From: a virus
Reading direction: 5' to 3' (one strand)
Virus record (IMG/VR): IMGVR_UViG_3300025141_008672
Span: 1 to 20,639 of that record
DNA: 20,639 bases
A program made the position numbers and the translations under genes. This document shows positions 1 to 16,640 of this stretch, one piece after another (within the stretch, counting starts at the first letter, position 1; the number at the start of each line of letters is the position of its first letter). The notes beneath the pieces were generated by a model. The model made no database searches, had not been told where the DNA came from, and worked only from the letters and a program-made list of their open reading frames with translations.

Positions 1-8
1 TGGTCTAC

Positions 9-23
9 TGGTATTATACCACA
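9..23 (-). promoter_or_regulatory. Possible extended -10 promoter inside a 13-bp palindrome
   Basis: Positions 9-21 are a perfect 13-base dyad (TGGTAT-T-ATACCA). On the minus strand this gives TGTGGTATAAT, an extended -10 element (TGN plus TATAAT), reading out of the window to the left. No good -35 hexamer lies 16-18 bases upstream. The same nonamer TGTGGTATA recurs upstream of the scaffold gene (17556-17564). The rest of 24-132 holds no gene. It contains an AT-rich inverted repeat (65-71 with 80-86, AATAAAG/CTTTATT, loop of 8), a second minus-strand TATAAT (105-110) and a GTATATATAC palindrome (115-124). Function is inferred only. Confidence 0.3.
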
Positions 24-132
24 TCGACAGCCTCCTTTGAGGGTGCAAAATCTTTCCACACTCAAATAAAGCCCCCTCACTTTATTAATAACTCTATACA
101 GTACATTATACCGTGTATATATACTGGGTTAT

Positions 133-429
133 TTAAAATACCCATCTAAACAACATTATAACCCCGAACAGTGCAATAAGTATAATAGCCATCACCTTCA
201 AATCATTCACTATCAATGACGGTGGTGTGACTGTACGTTTTATATCAGATTCATCATACAAATCATTCCTCTTAGGCGGTACAAGTGTTGAACCTCTTTC
301 TAAATATGCCTTTACAGTTGTTGGACTCATATTTAAATCTCGTCCTATTTTCATATATGATTCATTTCTATCATAATAGCGTTCGCAAAGTTCACTTAAT
401 AAATGGTCATATTTTCTTGGTCTTGTCAT
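133..429 (-). CDS. Small helix-turn-helix protein with C-terminal membrane anchor
   Basis: A 98-residue protein of unknown family. Residues about 24-46 form a plausible helix-turn-helix (a helix with KIGRDL, a turn NMSP, and a recognition-like helix TTVKAYLERG). This kind is seen in resolvase and sigma-like DNA-binding domains and in small phage regulators. A charged linker (about 47-77) follows, then one hydrophobic span at 78-96 with only two residues after it, so the protein would be tail-anchored with its N-terminus in the cytoplasm. The start at 429 lies 4 bases after the stop of the small membrane gene at 434-556, and both sit downstream of the strong promoter at 609-637. No Shine-Dalgarno is present. 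Candidate roles are membrane tethering of DNA, a membrane-bound regulator, or exclusion/lysis control; none is shown by sequence. That it is a real gene is fairly sure; the role is not. Confidence 0.7.
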   Translation of the reverse strand: MTRPRKYDHLLSELCERYYDRNESYMKIGRDLNMSPTTVKAYLERGSTLVPPKRNDLYDESDIKRTVTPPSLIVNDLKVMAIILIALFGVIMLFRWVF

Positions 430-433
430 AGAA

Positions 434-556
434 TTATCTAGTTAGTAAATTAGCAATTAGATTTAATGAAAATACAAATGGTGTTAGTGCTATTACTACT
501 ATAAAGCATTGAGCAAAGTAACTTGCTGTTTCTTCTCTAGTCTTTTCTCTTTTCAT
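434..556 (-). CDS. Very small single-span membrane protein (40 aa)
   Basis: Starts MKREKTREETASYF, then has one hydrophobic stretch from about residue 13 to 37 (FIVVIALTPFVFSL region) and ends NLLTR. The charged N-terminus (four K/R before residue 8) favours N-inside topology. The stop (TAA, 434-436) is 4 bases before the ATG of the HTH-anchor gene, a tight operon spacing. An in-frame ATG at 580 would add eight residues (MRIKSYKQ) and is the first ATG after the predicted transcription start near 602. I chose 556 because the ACAAACAA just before it resembles the leaders of the other genes. Family unknown. It could be a holin or antiholin partner, an exclusion peptide, or a partner of the anchored HTH protein. 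Confidence 0.55.
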   Translation of the reverse strand: MKREKTREETASYFAQCFIVVIALTPFVFSLNLIANLLTR

Positions 557-608
557 TTGTTTGTAAGATTTGATTCGCATAGGTTTGTTATTTATTTCTT
601 ATATTTAT

Positions 609-637
609 ATATTATCATATTTTTTAAAACGTGTCAA
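609..637 (-). promoter_or_regulatory. Near-consensus sigma70 promoter
   Basis: On the minus strand the sequence reads TTGACA (637-632), a 17-base spacer, then TAATAT (614-609), with a TG at the extended -10 position (TGATAATAT). The -35 is a perfect match and the -10 matches 5 of 6. Transcription would start near 602, about 20 bases before the ATG at 580, and read through the small membrane gene and the HTH-anchor gene. It lies just downstream of the late terminator, so it opens a separate unit. Such a strong host-type promoter suggests early or constitutive expression, unlike the late genes. Confidence 0.8.
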
Positions 638-647
638 ATCATTATAC

Positions 648-656
648 TGTGGATAA
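648..656 (-). promoter_or_regulatory. DnaA-box-like 9-mer
   Basis: The minus strand reads TTATCCACA, an exact match to the classical DnaA box, 10 bases upstream of the -35 hexamer at 632-637. No second clear copy was found nearby, although the AT-rich stretch 598-626 lies beside it. A single 9-mer can occur by chance. It could mark host DnaA control of the promoter or part of an origin, but the evidence is thin. Confidence 0.25.
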
Positions 657-658
657 CT

Positions 659-695
659 TCAAACAACAAAAAAACCACCTGTTTAAAGGCAGTTT
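659..695 (-). terminator. Intrinsic terminator of the late/lysis unit
   Basis: On the minus strand, AAACTGCCT (695-687), a six-base loop, then AGGTGGTTT (680-672) form a 9-bp stem with two G-U pairs. A T-rich tail (seven T's at 674-668, then GTTGTTTG) follows directly. It lies about 95 bases past the stop of the holin-like gene and before the promoter at 609-637, where the end of the late transcript is expected. The interval 557-789 has no convincing gene; it holds this terminator, the promoter and the small repeats listed. Confidence 0.75.
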
Positions 696-789
696 CCTTG
701 TTCAACGAAATGTACTTTCAAAGTTGTCTTTGATCCCCTATGCGAATAGAGTTCATTTTAAATTTAGCAATTTACCAAGTATCTGTCAA

Positions 790-1086
790 TTATCTTACTG
801 ACTTTTTATTCAGGTATTTTGAAACTTCCCCTAAAATTAGCCCTAAAACAACCGTCCATTCACTATCAAAATTAACTTCACTAAGCGTTTGTATTAAAAC
901 TTCAATACCACCAGCAACAAACATCATTCCAACACGCCAACCAAACGATTTAAAACGTGGCACTAACTTATTAAAAAATTCTTTTTTCTTTGACATAGTT
1001 TTTACTTTATATAACCTACCACTAGGCATTTTAGATATTAATTCCTGCATACTTGGAAACTTTTCCATATAACTAAGATAATTCAT
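790..1086 (-). CDS. Putative holin
   Basis: A 98-residue protein with two hydrophobic segments, about 50-68 (WRVGMMFVAGGIEVLIQTL) and about 76-92 (WTVVLGLILGEVSKYLNKK), separated by a short acidic turn and followed by a basic C-terminus. This two-span, small, basic-tailed layout next to an endolysin is that of class II-like phage holins. It would form lesions in the inner membrane and release or activate the endolysin. The start at 1086 overlaps the end of the endolysin gene by 14 bases. An internal ATG at 996 (MSKKKEFFNK) with an A-rich leader would give a 68-residue protein holding both spans, and is a credible alternative or dual start. The terminator at 659-695 follows. Position and topology support the call; no family motif proves it. 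Confidence 0.6.
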   Translation of the reverse strand: MNYLSYMEKFPSMQELISKMPSGRLYKVKTMSKKKEFFNKLVPRFKSFGWRVGMMFVAGGIEVLIQTLSEVNFDSEWTVVLGLILGEVSKYLNKKSVR

Positions 1087-1819
1087 TAGTCATTATGTCC
1101 AAACCTTTTTTATAATTTGCAATTGTCGGTACATCCTCAAACTCACTCCACAAACCAACCTCAAGCCCCATTCTATACGTTGGTAAAGCTGATATATGAT
1201 GAGCAGTGTTATTAATTTCATCTATAAAATAAATTTCTTTTTCATCAACTCTTTTACATTGAAACATGTTTTGAATTATTAAATATTGATTAAAGTACCC
1301 TTTATACCCATTATTGCGATCTATAACCTGCCATTTACTACGTACATCCATTTTTTGCAAACGTACACCCCAATGTAAATGCGGACCTGTGCTAGTAACT
1401 GGATATCCTGAATTTCCACTAATTGCAATTTGCTCTCCTCTTTTTACCTTCTTATGTGAAATAAGTTCCTCTTTTAAATGCCCAAAATTCATCTCTAAGC
1501 GATATTTAACACCATCAACAACCCAACTATCAGAATAAGCCCATAAAACGTCTCCATACGTCTCATTTGCCATGTAATTATCAACCCAAAGGTCACAAGG
1601 TGCATATATAGGAGTTCCAACTGGAGCAGGAAAATCAATTCCATTATGTCCTTTCATACCCCATTGACCATAAAAGCTCTCATGTCCATTCCAACTAAAA
1701 TCTTGACCAAACGATTGTCCATAAGCAACTTCCATTGGCTTTGATAATACAATCGGTACTTTAACACTTGGCTCGATACGATATTGTAACATGTACTCTT
1801 TTGTTACTTTTCCTGTCAT
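1073..1819 (-). CDS. M23-family peptidoglycan endopeptidase (endolysin)
   Basis: A 248-residue zinc metallopeptidase of the LytM/lysostaphin (M23) type, which cuts peptide cross-links of peptidoglycan. The metal site is complete: H58 and D62 in GHNGID, H147 and H149 in PHLHWG, plus H114 in the GHL motif. The glycine-rich turn SGNSGYP (134-140) is also typical. There is no signal peptide or membrane span, so export would rely on the neighbouring holin. Residues about 160-248 form a separate C-terminal part (a YFID..NNTAHHI stretch near 197-209) that I do not recognise with certainty and that may bind the cell wall. The gene has its own candidate promoter (1898-1926) and overlaps the holin gene by 14 bases. 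It ends with TAG. A tail-associated role is less likely given this position. Confidence 0.9.
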   Translation of the reverse strand: MTGKVTKEYMLQYRIEPSVKVPIVLSKPMEVAYGQSFGQDFSWNGHESFYGQWGMKGHNGIDFPAPVGTPIYAPCDLWVDNYMANETYGDVLWAYSDSWVVDGVKYRLEMNFGHLKEELISHKKVKRGEQIAISGNSGYPVTSTGPHLHWGVRLQKMDVRSKWQVIDRNNGYKGYFNQYLIIQNMFQCKRVDEKEIYFIDEINNTAHHISALPTYRMGLEVGLWSEFEDVPTIANYKKGLDIMTNELS

Positions 1820-9444: not shown

Positions 9445-9885
9445 TTATTTTTTATCTATTAAAGCATCAAATAAATCTAAACATTCTAATGACATTGAAG
9501 GCATTGTTTCTCTTTGCGAACTAGATGAATAATACTTTATAGCCTCAATCATTCTATCCGAAAACTCTAGTTCTTTTTCACTTGATCGCTCTTGCAATAC
9601 CTTCTTTCTTGGTTTTGATGATAACCATTCATCATATTTAATCCATTCAAATAAATCAGAAGGAATTTCATCGTTATCTTTCAAACCAGCATCCTTTACT
9701 TCTTTCATATCAATCACACAAACCTCTAAATCTGATAATAATAATTTATTTGCTTCTAAAACCCCTCTTTGATGATCTCTATGAAATGCTGTTCTAACAA
9801 CTGCCCGCCCCTTTTCATTTACCTGATCAGTATACTTTAGAATTTCTAATAAGATTTTTTTTAGTTCTACGTTTTTAACTTTCAT
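9445..9885 (-). CDS. Hypothetical helical protein
   Basis: A 146-residue, mostly helical, charged protein with no signal peptide, no membrane span and no motif I recognise. The first helix (VELKKILLEILKYTDQV) is amphipathic. The middle has DLFEWIKYDEWL and the C-terminus SLECLDLFDALIDKK. It sits 5 bases before the tail stabilisation-like gene and 19 bases after the short tagged fibre gene. By position it could be a small neck protein or an assembly chaperone, but nothing in the sequence decides. Confidence 0.6.
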   Translation of the reverse strand: MKVKNVELKKILLEILKYTDQVNEKGRAVVRTAFHRDHQRGVLEANKLLLSDLEVCVIDMKEVKDAGLKDNDEIPSDLFEWIKYDEWLSSKPRKKVLQERSSEKELEFSDRMIEAIKYYSSSSQRETMPSMSLECLDLFDALIDKK

Positions 9886-9904
9886 TTTATTTGTCTATTT
9901 TTTA

Positions 9905-10339
9905 TTAGATTTCGTACCACTTCTTTGTGTCAGTTGTCATTAATTTGAAAACCTTTGTATCCCCAATTGATACAGATTCATCTGCTCCAGCCTTTAAAAA
10001 CATTACAGTCTCAGATGTTCCCATACCATGATTATTCTTCAAAGTCAAAGAAGCTCCAAATACTAAAGTTATCACTGCACCATCTGACAGCCCCGTTGAA
10101 ATAATTCCAGATATTGTAGTTGTACCAGTAACACGAAATGAATCACCATCTGAACCTAATGCTAAATCAGTTGCACTCGCAATATCTGCCCCCTGTGTAT
10201 CTATAGCTTGACTATCTGATGTAACTAGAAGTCTATGGGTAACTGGATCAGCCCATAAAACAACTGGCGTTGTTTGGTCAACGTTTGAAACAGCCATTAA
10301 GGTTGGTATTCGATTATTATCTCTTTTTGCATCTGCCAT
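9905..10339 (-). CDS. Short tagged fibre/decoration protein (N-tag plus C-terminal beta domain)
   Basis: A 144-residue protein in two parts. Residues 1-40 carry the module MADAKRDNNRIPTLMAVS, TPVVLWADP, THRLLV, which recurs at the start of the proteins at 12193-13338 and 13342-13617. Residues about 50-144 (ASATDLALGSDGDSFRVTGT onward) match the C-terminal domain of the 12193-13338 protein, sharing the LxLGxDGxxFxxTGTTxI pattern. It looks like the long protein with its middle removed. Such beta domains are common in phage fibres and head decorations. I infer that the N-module docks to the virion and the C-domain is exposed. It lies just upstream of the neck genes. The exact role is unknown. 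Confidence 0.6.
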   Translation of the reverse strand: MADAKRDNNRIPTLMAVSNVDQTTPVVLWADPVTHRLLVTSDSQAIDTQGADIASATDLALGSDGDSFRVTGTTTISGIISTGLSDGAVITLVFGASLTLKNNHGMGTSETVMFLKAGADESVSIGDTKVFKLMTTDTKKWYEI

Positions 10340-15620: not shown

Positions 15621-16640
15621 TTAGATACTTGTAATTCCTGTTAATTTACCTTGTCGTTTTGGATTTCGTGTTACGAATTGTCCACCAAAGTAAACATGTC
15701 CAACTACTCCACCAGCATTTGCGGGTACAATCCAATCACTCCAAGAGAAACCTAATCCAATTGGTGCAGAATAATCATTCCCTTCAACTTGTGATTTATA
15801 AGCAACTGGTTGTCCGAATTTATATGGTAAAGCATACCATTCTAAGTCCTCTTCACGTAAAGCGAATAAAACTCCAGAAGTACATTTTTCATCCATTAAT
15901 ACAGGTTTACCCATGTAACTTAATGCAGTGAATCCAGTTCCAGCTTGTAGTCCTTTCATCAATGAAGCTTCTTTGTTAATTCGCTCTTGTGGTCTTAACA
16001 ATTGTCCATAGAAACTAAATACAGCCTCAGTCGTATAAAACGCCGAAGGTTTTTGTGCTCCTGATGTTACATTGTTCCAAAGTGTATCGATCTTTGCCAA
16101 AGTTAAAGTACCACCTGATGCAGTAACAGTTCCTTGTAAAGTTGTGTATGTGTTTCGGTTTAGTCCACCAATAGTTGCAACAGAAGTTCCGTCATCAACT
16201 AAAGCAGCTAATCCTAATGGGTCTTTTGATCCATTTCCTGTTCCATCAGCATAGAAGATTGTTCCTAAATCATCTGCCATGTCTTCTGTATCAGATTGGA
16301 TTGTCAATTTCATCAAATCTAGAATCTTGTCTTCTGTATCGGCAACAGATAATTCATCACCTGGTAAAGCACAAGTAATTTGATAAAAAGAAGGAGTATA
16401 TTCCATGAATTGACGATTATCAGTAGCAGCTACTGAAAAAGTGTCAAAACCTCGGAATGATGTTCCTGTTGTATTCTTTGAAGTCTTAATCGGAATTCGC
16501 ATTGTTCGACCACTCCATTTTTTTGAAGCTCTTACAACACGTTGAAATAAAACATTTGAGTTCAAAATAGTATCAACCACATATGGAAGATATTTTTGCT
16601 GAACCGTTGTTTGGATCCGTTGTCCGTATAGTTCTGCCAT
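15621..16640 (-). CDS. Major capsid protein
   Basis: A 339-residue protein with the features of an HK97-fold coat protein. A helical N-terminus (QQKYLPYVVDTILNSNVLFQ) is followed by an E-loop-like segment (KKWSGRTMRIPIKTSKN, TSFRGFDTF), a spine helix (DLMKLTIQSDTEDMADDLGT) and IFYADGTGNGSKDPLGL. Later come P-domain sequence near ERINKEASLMKGLQAGTGF and a beta-rich end with GQFVTRNPKRQGKLTGI. No prohead-protease cleavage is evident and no protease gene is nearby, so the coat is probably used full length. It follows the scaffold gene, with a 49-base gap carrying a strong stem-loop (16646-16677), and precedes the decoration gene. Size and order support the call well. Confidence 0.88.
   Translation of the reverse strand: MAELYGQRIQTTVQQKYLPYVVDTILNSNVLFQRVVRASKKWSGRTMRIPIKTSKNTTGTSFRGFDTFSVAATDNRQFMEYTPSFYQITCALPGDELSVADTEDKILDLMKLTIQSDTEDMADDLGTIFYADGTGNGSKDPLGLAALVDDGTSVATIGGLNRNTYTTLQGTVTASGGTLTLAKIDTLWNNVTSGAQKPSAFYTTEAVFSFYGQLLRPQERINKEASLMKGLQAGTGFTALSYMGKPVLMDEKCTSGVLFALREEDLEWYALPYKFGQPVAYKSQVEGNDYSAPIGLGFSWSDWIVPANAGGVVGHVYFGGQFVTRNPKRQGKLTGITSI

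Follow-up and report, generated by a model that had tools for sequence, protein, structure and literature searches.

At the end of a minus-strand series of genes in a 20,639-bp virus fragment (IMG/VR record IMGVR_UViG_3300025141_008672, analysed over its whole length and called the window here) lies a two-gene unit, encoding a 48-residue single-span membrane protein and a 98-residue helix-turn-helix (HTH) protein with a C-terminal membrane helix (Table 1). The series begins with the terminase gene (20637), followed by genes for the portal and the major capsid protein (15621-16640), structural genes, an M23 peptidase gene, the 790-1086 ORF, and the HTH unit. Both genes of the unit are present on the minus strand where a first-pass annotation of this DNA had placed them (133-429 and 434-580). 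It had, however, assigned 40 residues to the smaller protein: the first ATG gives 48, and the 40-residue version begins at an internal ATG (556). No viral relatives of the M23 peptidase gene were found, and a glutathione-synthetase-like identity for the 790-1086 ORF was rejected, the match being below cut-off.

Relatives of the major capsid protein occur at 80 viral loci at least, and in five genome contigs, four belonging to Patescibacteria MAGs and one to an Ignavibacteriae MAG. The nearest named phage by this protein is a TM7 phage (32%). A Shine-Dalgarno-like motif was found for none of the 19 longer window ORFs, and such motifs are nearly absent throughout the clade (loci L003-L111; at most 29% in any locus). 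Together, the predominance of Patescibacteria MAGs among the capsid relatives, the proximity of a TM7 phage, and the scarcity of Shine-Dalgarno motifs indicate that the host is probably a Patescibacterium, allowing for possible errors in MAG binning.

Table 1. Features in and around the two-gene unit, in window coordinates (KD19, Kyte-Doolittle-19; AF2, AlphaFold2)
Feature	Position	Strand	Basis or remark
Conserved noncoding element, hairpins, perfect extended -10 TGGTATAAT (21-13) at far end	1..132	-	L083 match
Tail-anchored HTH protein, 98 aa (HTH head, flexible linker, C-terminal membrane helix)	133..429	-	ORF; AF2 model; relative L083 870-1145
3' coding DNA of membrane tail	133..237	-	94% identical to L083; head diverged
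C-terminal membrane helix, residues 78-97	139..198	-	KD19 2.59; model; 94% identity to L083 tail
Tail peptide of the HTH protein, TVTPPSLIVNDLKVMAI			
Tri-helical HTH domain, residues 8-46	292..408	-	AF2 helices; Foldseek; weak sub-threshold profile matches
Single-span membrane protein, 48 aa from first ATG	434-580	-	ORF; KD19 2.39
Target CCUAUGCGAAU over AUG of 48-aa ORF	573..583	-	11 nt perfectly complementary to 737-747
P2 promoter, TTGACA-N17-TAATAT, TG before -10	609..637	-	Consensus scan; promoter class validated in clade phages
Consensus DnaA box TTATCCACA	648..656	-	10 bp upstream of P2 -35; sole TTATNCACA in window
Intrinsic terminator of P1 RNA and late operon	665..702	-	16-bp hairpin with T run
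Predicted small RNA, about 90 nt, three stem-loops, P1 start to terminator	665..754	-	MFE -26.0 kcal/mol
Antisense segment AUUCGCAUAGG in first stem-loop of P1 RNA	737..747	-	100% inverted repeat I7
P1 promoter, TTGACA-N17-TAAATT, TG before -10	761..789	-	Directly past stop codon of 790-1086 ORF
98-aa ORF, moderately hydrophobic segment	790-1086	-	KD19 1.33; adjoins M23 peptidase gene
M23 peptidase	1073-1819	-	Pfam E 1.3e-14

The tail-anchored HTH protein and its small neighbor

An AlphaFold2 model of the HTH protein (two-row alignment) has HTH helices at residues 8-20, 25-31, and 36-46 (pLDDT about 84), the latter two forming the HTH that had been claimed at residues 24-46. These are followed by a disordered linker (residues 53-55 and 57-69, pLDDT <50) and one continuous C-terminal helix (residues 70-97). 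The Kyte-Doolittle-19 maximum of 2.59 falls at residues 79-97, with three Lys/Arg residues before the span and zero after it. The chain stops one residue past the membrane helix, and a sensory or extracytoplasmic domain is absent. The strong span, which is kept in the sole known relative of the protein, bears out the C-terminal anchor proposed in the first-pass annotation.

Comparison with Foldseek superposes the HTH on the DNA-binding domain of DeoR (7bhy; 0.7 Å over 40 residues) and on sigma region 4 DNA-binding domains (0.7-0.8 Å over about 40 residues); none of the matches reaches E 0.001, E-values for a domain this small not being significant alone. The head also gives weak MerR, HTH_38, and sigma-r4 profile matches, all below curated cut-offs, and profile searches of Pfam, PHROGs, NCBIfam, and PADLOC returned nothing beyond such sub-threshold HTH matches. 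As modeled, the architecture is that of an HTH head joined to a membrane anchor, and we infer that the protein binds DNA.

The 48-residue protein has a basic N-terminus and a KD19 peak of 2.39 at residues 25-43. Its stop codon lies 4 bp before the start of the HTH gene, so translation of the two may be coupled. No homologue was found in viral contigs and no family match was obtained; a SecE-like identity was rejected as a match below cut-off. The protein could be a membrane partner of the HTH protein or a membrane-active effector. Tethering of DNA, sensing of the membrane, and phage exclusion, the roles suggested earlier for the gene pair, are each conceivable.

An N-terminal HTH is also found in transmembrane transcription regulators of the CadC/ToxR/ArnR type (PMC10269533, PMC6396743), where, as in the phage protein, a single chain carries both the cytoplasmic HTH and a membrane anchor. 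A survey of these regulators (PMC10269533) nowhere uses the word "phage". CadC, ToxR, and ArnR have a sensory domain, although not all such regulators do; in ArnR, HAMP and sensor are followed by two C-terminal spans (PMC6396743). In contrast, the 98-residue protein has one span at its extreme C-terminus and no sensor. It does combine in one chain the two features by which transmembrane regulators are recognized, a predicted HTH and one or more transmembrane segments. Judged by the model, its closest architecture is theirs, pared down to a head, a linker, and a single span at the end.

The first-pass annotation had named phi29 p16.7, in which an N-terminal span precedes a C-terminal homeodomain-like domain, as the closest idea. 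Both are phage-encoded membrane proteins with a DNA-binding domain, but the domain order is reversed, and p16.7 is absent from the 50 best Foldseek matches and from the PDB-sequence matches of the 98-residue protein. The comparison thus stands as a functional likeness only, p16.7 binding displaced ssDNA and terminal protein (PMC4974454); the 98-residue protein is not a p16.7 homologue or family member.

Head, tail, and noncoding element in a second contig

The only relative of the HTH protein that was found is encoded in L083 (870-1145; IMGVR_UViG_3300025066_000309, 14,277 bp; the same contig as L002), and its model has the same layout (HTH pLDDT 83-87). Phage and plasmid collections and 84,980 species genomes gave no relative; a profile search of 380 Patescibacteria genomes gave a single match, to the head only and inside a 989-residue frame; and no other HTH-plus-tail protein was found in the phage clade, of which about 100 loci were covered. 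Because matches to the L083 primase are low (only 23-33% in Patescibacteria and <30% in phages), L083 may, going by sequence, be another phage type. A search of related contigs for the same gene pair had been suggested as a check: the HTH-anchor gene is present in L083, and no homologue of the tiny protein is recognizable there.

The heads of the two proteins are 29% identical, with codon-position identities of 0.39/0.48/0.29. By this measure they show an old divergence, with synonymous sites saturated and a protein-coding pattern still visible. The tails, in contrast, are 94% identical in protein, with codon-position identities of 0.91/1.0/0.91. The six sense-codon nucleotide changes in the tail all fall in one 15-nt patch and amount in the protein to Ala=Ala, Ile>Val, Leu=Leu, and Ile>Val only, which is conservative for a membrane span. 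A diversity-generating retroelement was rejected as their source, the changes not being adenine-directed. The noncoding element is 97% identical over 131 bp to L083 1632-1762, and the window ends inside it. Folded as RNA, it is more stable than most shuffles in the window (z -2.34), and less clearly so in L083 (z -1.81). No DNA-level similarity between the window and L083 was found beyond tail and element. In L083, a 36-residue membrane ORF and a YopX-family gene separate the HTH gene from the element, which there lies ahead of a further single-span ORF of 36 codons that has a Shine-Dalgarno-like sequence.

Near-identity of tail and element beside a diverged head places a recombination boundary between head and tail. 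By comparison of the two contigs, anchor and noncoding element travel together while the DNA-reading head is exchanged, and since the heads differ while the element is constant, the element is unlikely to be their common operator. It could be argued that tail and element are no more than the edge of a recombination joint or of mobile DNA, the membrane tail having no selected function. The tail DNA is indeed nearly identical even at third positions, and the homology runs past the stop codon into noncoding DNA, with the window ending inside the element; but the tail changes are those tolerated by a membrane span and both heads are still fused in frame to the tail, and we consider this explanation unlikely.

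Opposite the element, both contigs have an open frame of about 50 codons (window 3-149, plus strand; L083 1772-1620, minus strand). The few substitutions are mostly synonymous when read in it, which hints weakly at antisense coding. Just upstream of the HTH gene in L083, the leader (772-845) can form a pair of hairpins that a third stem closes (z -1.65, not significant).

Promoters and a DnaA box

A perfect TTGACA with an extended -10 occurs at exactly two sites in the whole window, P1 and P2, against 0.15 expected from simulated sequence. Both are on the minus (coding) strand and both lie in one gap. P2 (637-609, TTGACA-17-TAATAT with extended -10) is the near-perfect sigma70 promoter that had been proposed to drive a separate unit, a proposal that this count supports. 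The description of the unit as lying right after the late terminator was accurate as to position, but had missed P1, whose transcript also ends there. The terminator (702-665) is absent from the listing of a simple consensus scan.

Among clade phages and L083, such promoters (up to one -35 mismatch) number 13 in intergenic DNA, against about 1.7 expected, a figure obtained as total expected matches multiplied by the noncoding fraction. In the fetched loci, a promoter (at least 9/12 matches) follows 17 of 57 TTATCCACA sites, against about 1.3 expected, and a relaxed pattern of DnaA box plus promoter has 12 matches against 0 for the scrambled control. The strict pattern has 11 matches in 192 Patescibacteria genomes, against 0 for scrambled and reversed controls. 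On sequence grounds, P2 is a member of a class of promoters that, in this phage group, follow a DnaA box. Genes downstream of these promoters in the clade include portal as well as replication genes, and the class is therefore a general one, not a replication signature.

In members of the class (L099, L104, L105, L088, L056, L026, L037, L065, and window 656-609), TTATCCACA lies about 4-16 bp upstream of TTGACA-N17-TATAAT, before portal and early genes. A candidate shared operator, TATmCACnGTATAATG at 655 and 119, was rejected, its frequency being about that of chance by our own estimate. In L083, positions 9738-9998 hold a promoter, a structured RNA, a strong terminator, TTATCCACA, and a promoter, then XRE and D5 primase genes, in the layout of window 789-580; the two regions align with a score of 56, against at most 47 in 500 shuffles.

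A DnaA box beside the unit, a similar layout before the XRE/D5-primase operon of L083, and the membrane-anchored DNA-binding architecture would also suit a replication or packaging tether of the phi29 p16.7 kind, in which the HTH protein would keep phage DNA at the membrane while it replicates and play no part in transcription. This seems improbable, however, as clade DnaA-box promoters also precede portal genes and the box is not replication-specific, the fold resembles sequence-specific regulators, and a p16.7 match was not obtained.

A predicted antisense RNA and a model for the operon

The RNA predicted to run from P1 to the terminator folds with z -3.26, and 0 of 200 shuffles are as stable. 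Its 11-nt match to the start of the 48-residue ORF was noticed post hoc. Composition-matched simulated RNAs equal it with p about 0.0007, and of 655 other window stretches 0 do so; in the predicted mRNA most of the target is free of base pairing. RNAduplex rankings that involved large loops were uninformative and were set aside, and Rfam gave nothing convincing for the unit region or for the conserved noncoding element. By prediction, the P1 RNA has the traits of trans-acting antisense small RNAs, namely its own promoter and terminator and a structured fold, and 11 nt at a translation start falls within their 6-12 nt range of complementarity (PMC4147584).

For the L083 counterpart of the RNA, complementarity to the following gene start was looked for and not found. 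Antisense control of the operon by the P1 RNA is therefore uncorroborated by comparison, and stands as a good hypothesis for one genome. P22 sar and the c4 RNAs of phages P1/P7 are short phage antisense RNAs that pair at a start region and hold an operon off. Compared by description only, the P1 RNA is like them in its start-region pairing, and differs in targeting a membrane-protein operon and in having its own promoter and terminator upstream.

Operators too look like inverted repeats, and the 11-nt arms might be DNA operator half-sites, or might match by chance, in which case P1 would only add transcripts ending at the late terminator; that L083 shares the layout without the complementarity agrees with this. 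Yet the arms are 153 nt apart with one exactly on a start codon, and the P1-terminator RNA is more stable than 200 of 200 shuffles. We regard this reading as possible, if rather doubtful.

In type I toxin-antitoxin systems such as tisB/istR, a small hydrophobic single-span protein is likewise paired with a separately promoted complementary RNA (PMC4147584), and the 48-residue protein fits the type I toxin size class (<60 aa, one span). It would then be a toxin acting on the membrane (as a lysis helper, in growth arrest, or in exclusion), with the P1 RNA as antitoxin and the HTH protein as a co-expressed regulator. The basic N-terminus, the complementarity of the P1 RNA to the start codon, and the position directly past the lysis genes (M23 peptidase and the small 790-1086 ORF) agree with such a module. 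However, described type I antitoxins pair over at least 18 nt (PMC4147584) and the P1 RNA over 11, the phage operon adds a gene for a DNA-binding protein, and the 48-residue protein lacks a family match; a toxin-antitoxin function is in our view unlikely.

The reading that we prefer, tentatively and with somewhat less than even confidence, is an antisense-gated, separately regulated phage operon for a membrane-tethered DNA-binding regulator and a tiny single-span partner. Both genes would be driven by P2, a promoter of host type with an extended -10 and a preceding DnaA box, and P1, just upstream, would make a short structured RNA ending at the terminator. We infer that this RNA is produced and acts as a repressor: by 11 nt of its first stem-loop it would base-pair at the tiny gene's start codon, keeping translation of the operon low until the RNA is out-titrated or P2 is strongly used. 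The HTH protein would enter the membrane through its C-terminal tail, leaving the HTH on the cytoplasmic side, and so held would fix its DNA site at the membrane, as transcription regulator or anchor; it may work together with the 48-residue protein. The bound site may be a promoter, as for a regulator, or bulk phage DNA, as for a tether; a regulator is favored because the modeled HTH resembles sequence-specific domains.

To our knowledge, gene control in viruses of Patescibacteria is almost entirely uncharted. Should the operon model be right, these phages employ small-RNA control along with DNA-binding proteins that are kept at the membrane and whose heads can be exchanged, and the model supplies promoter, RNA, and operator sequences that can be tested. 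The DnaA-box promoter class would link phage transcription to the host replication initiator. It is tempting to speculate about a Patescibacteria phage cassette, in which a DnaA-box promoter and an antisense RNA gate a membrane-tethered DNA-binding protein with a swappable head and a constant tail plus element. Such a cassette, a long shot on present evidence, would be a modular means by which selected DNA sites of phage or host are fixed at an ultra-small cell's membrane.

In the related phage L110, the position equivalent to window 790-1086 is occupied by an 82-residue hydrophobic, holin-like ORF. A 163-residue ORF of the same phage (3981-4472, minus strand), at the junction of lysis and replication genes, shows by eye an HTH-like stretch at its N-terminus and an HNH-like region after it.
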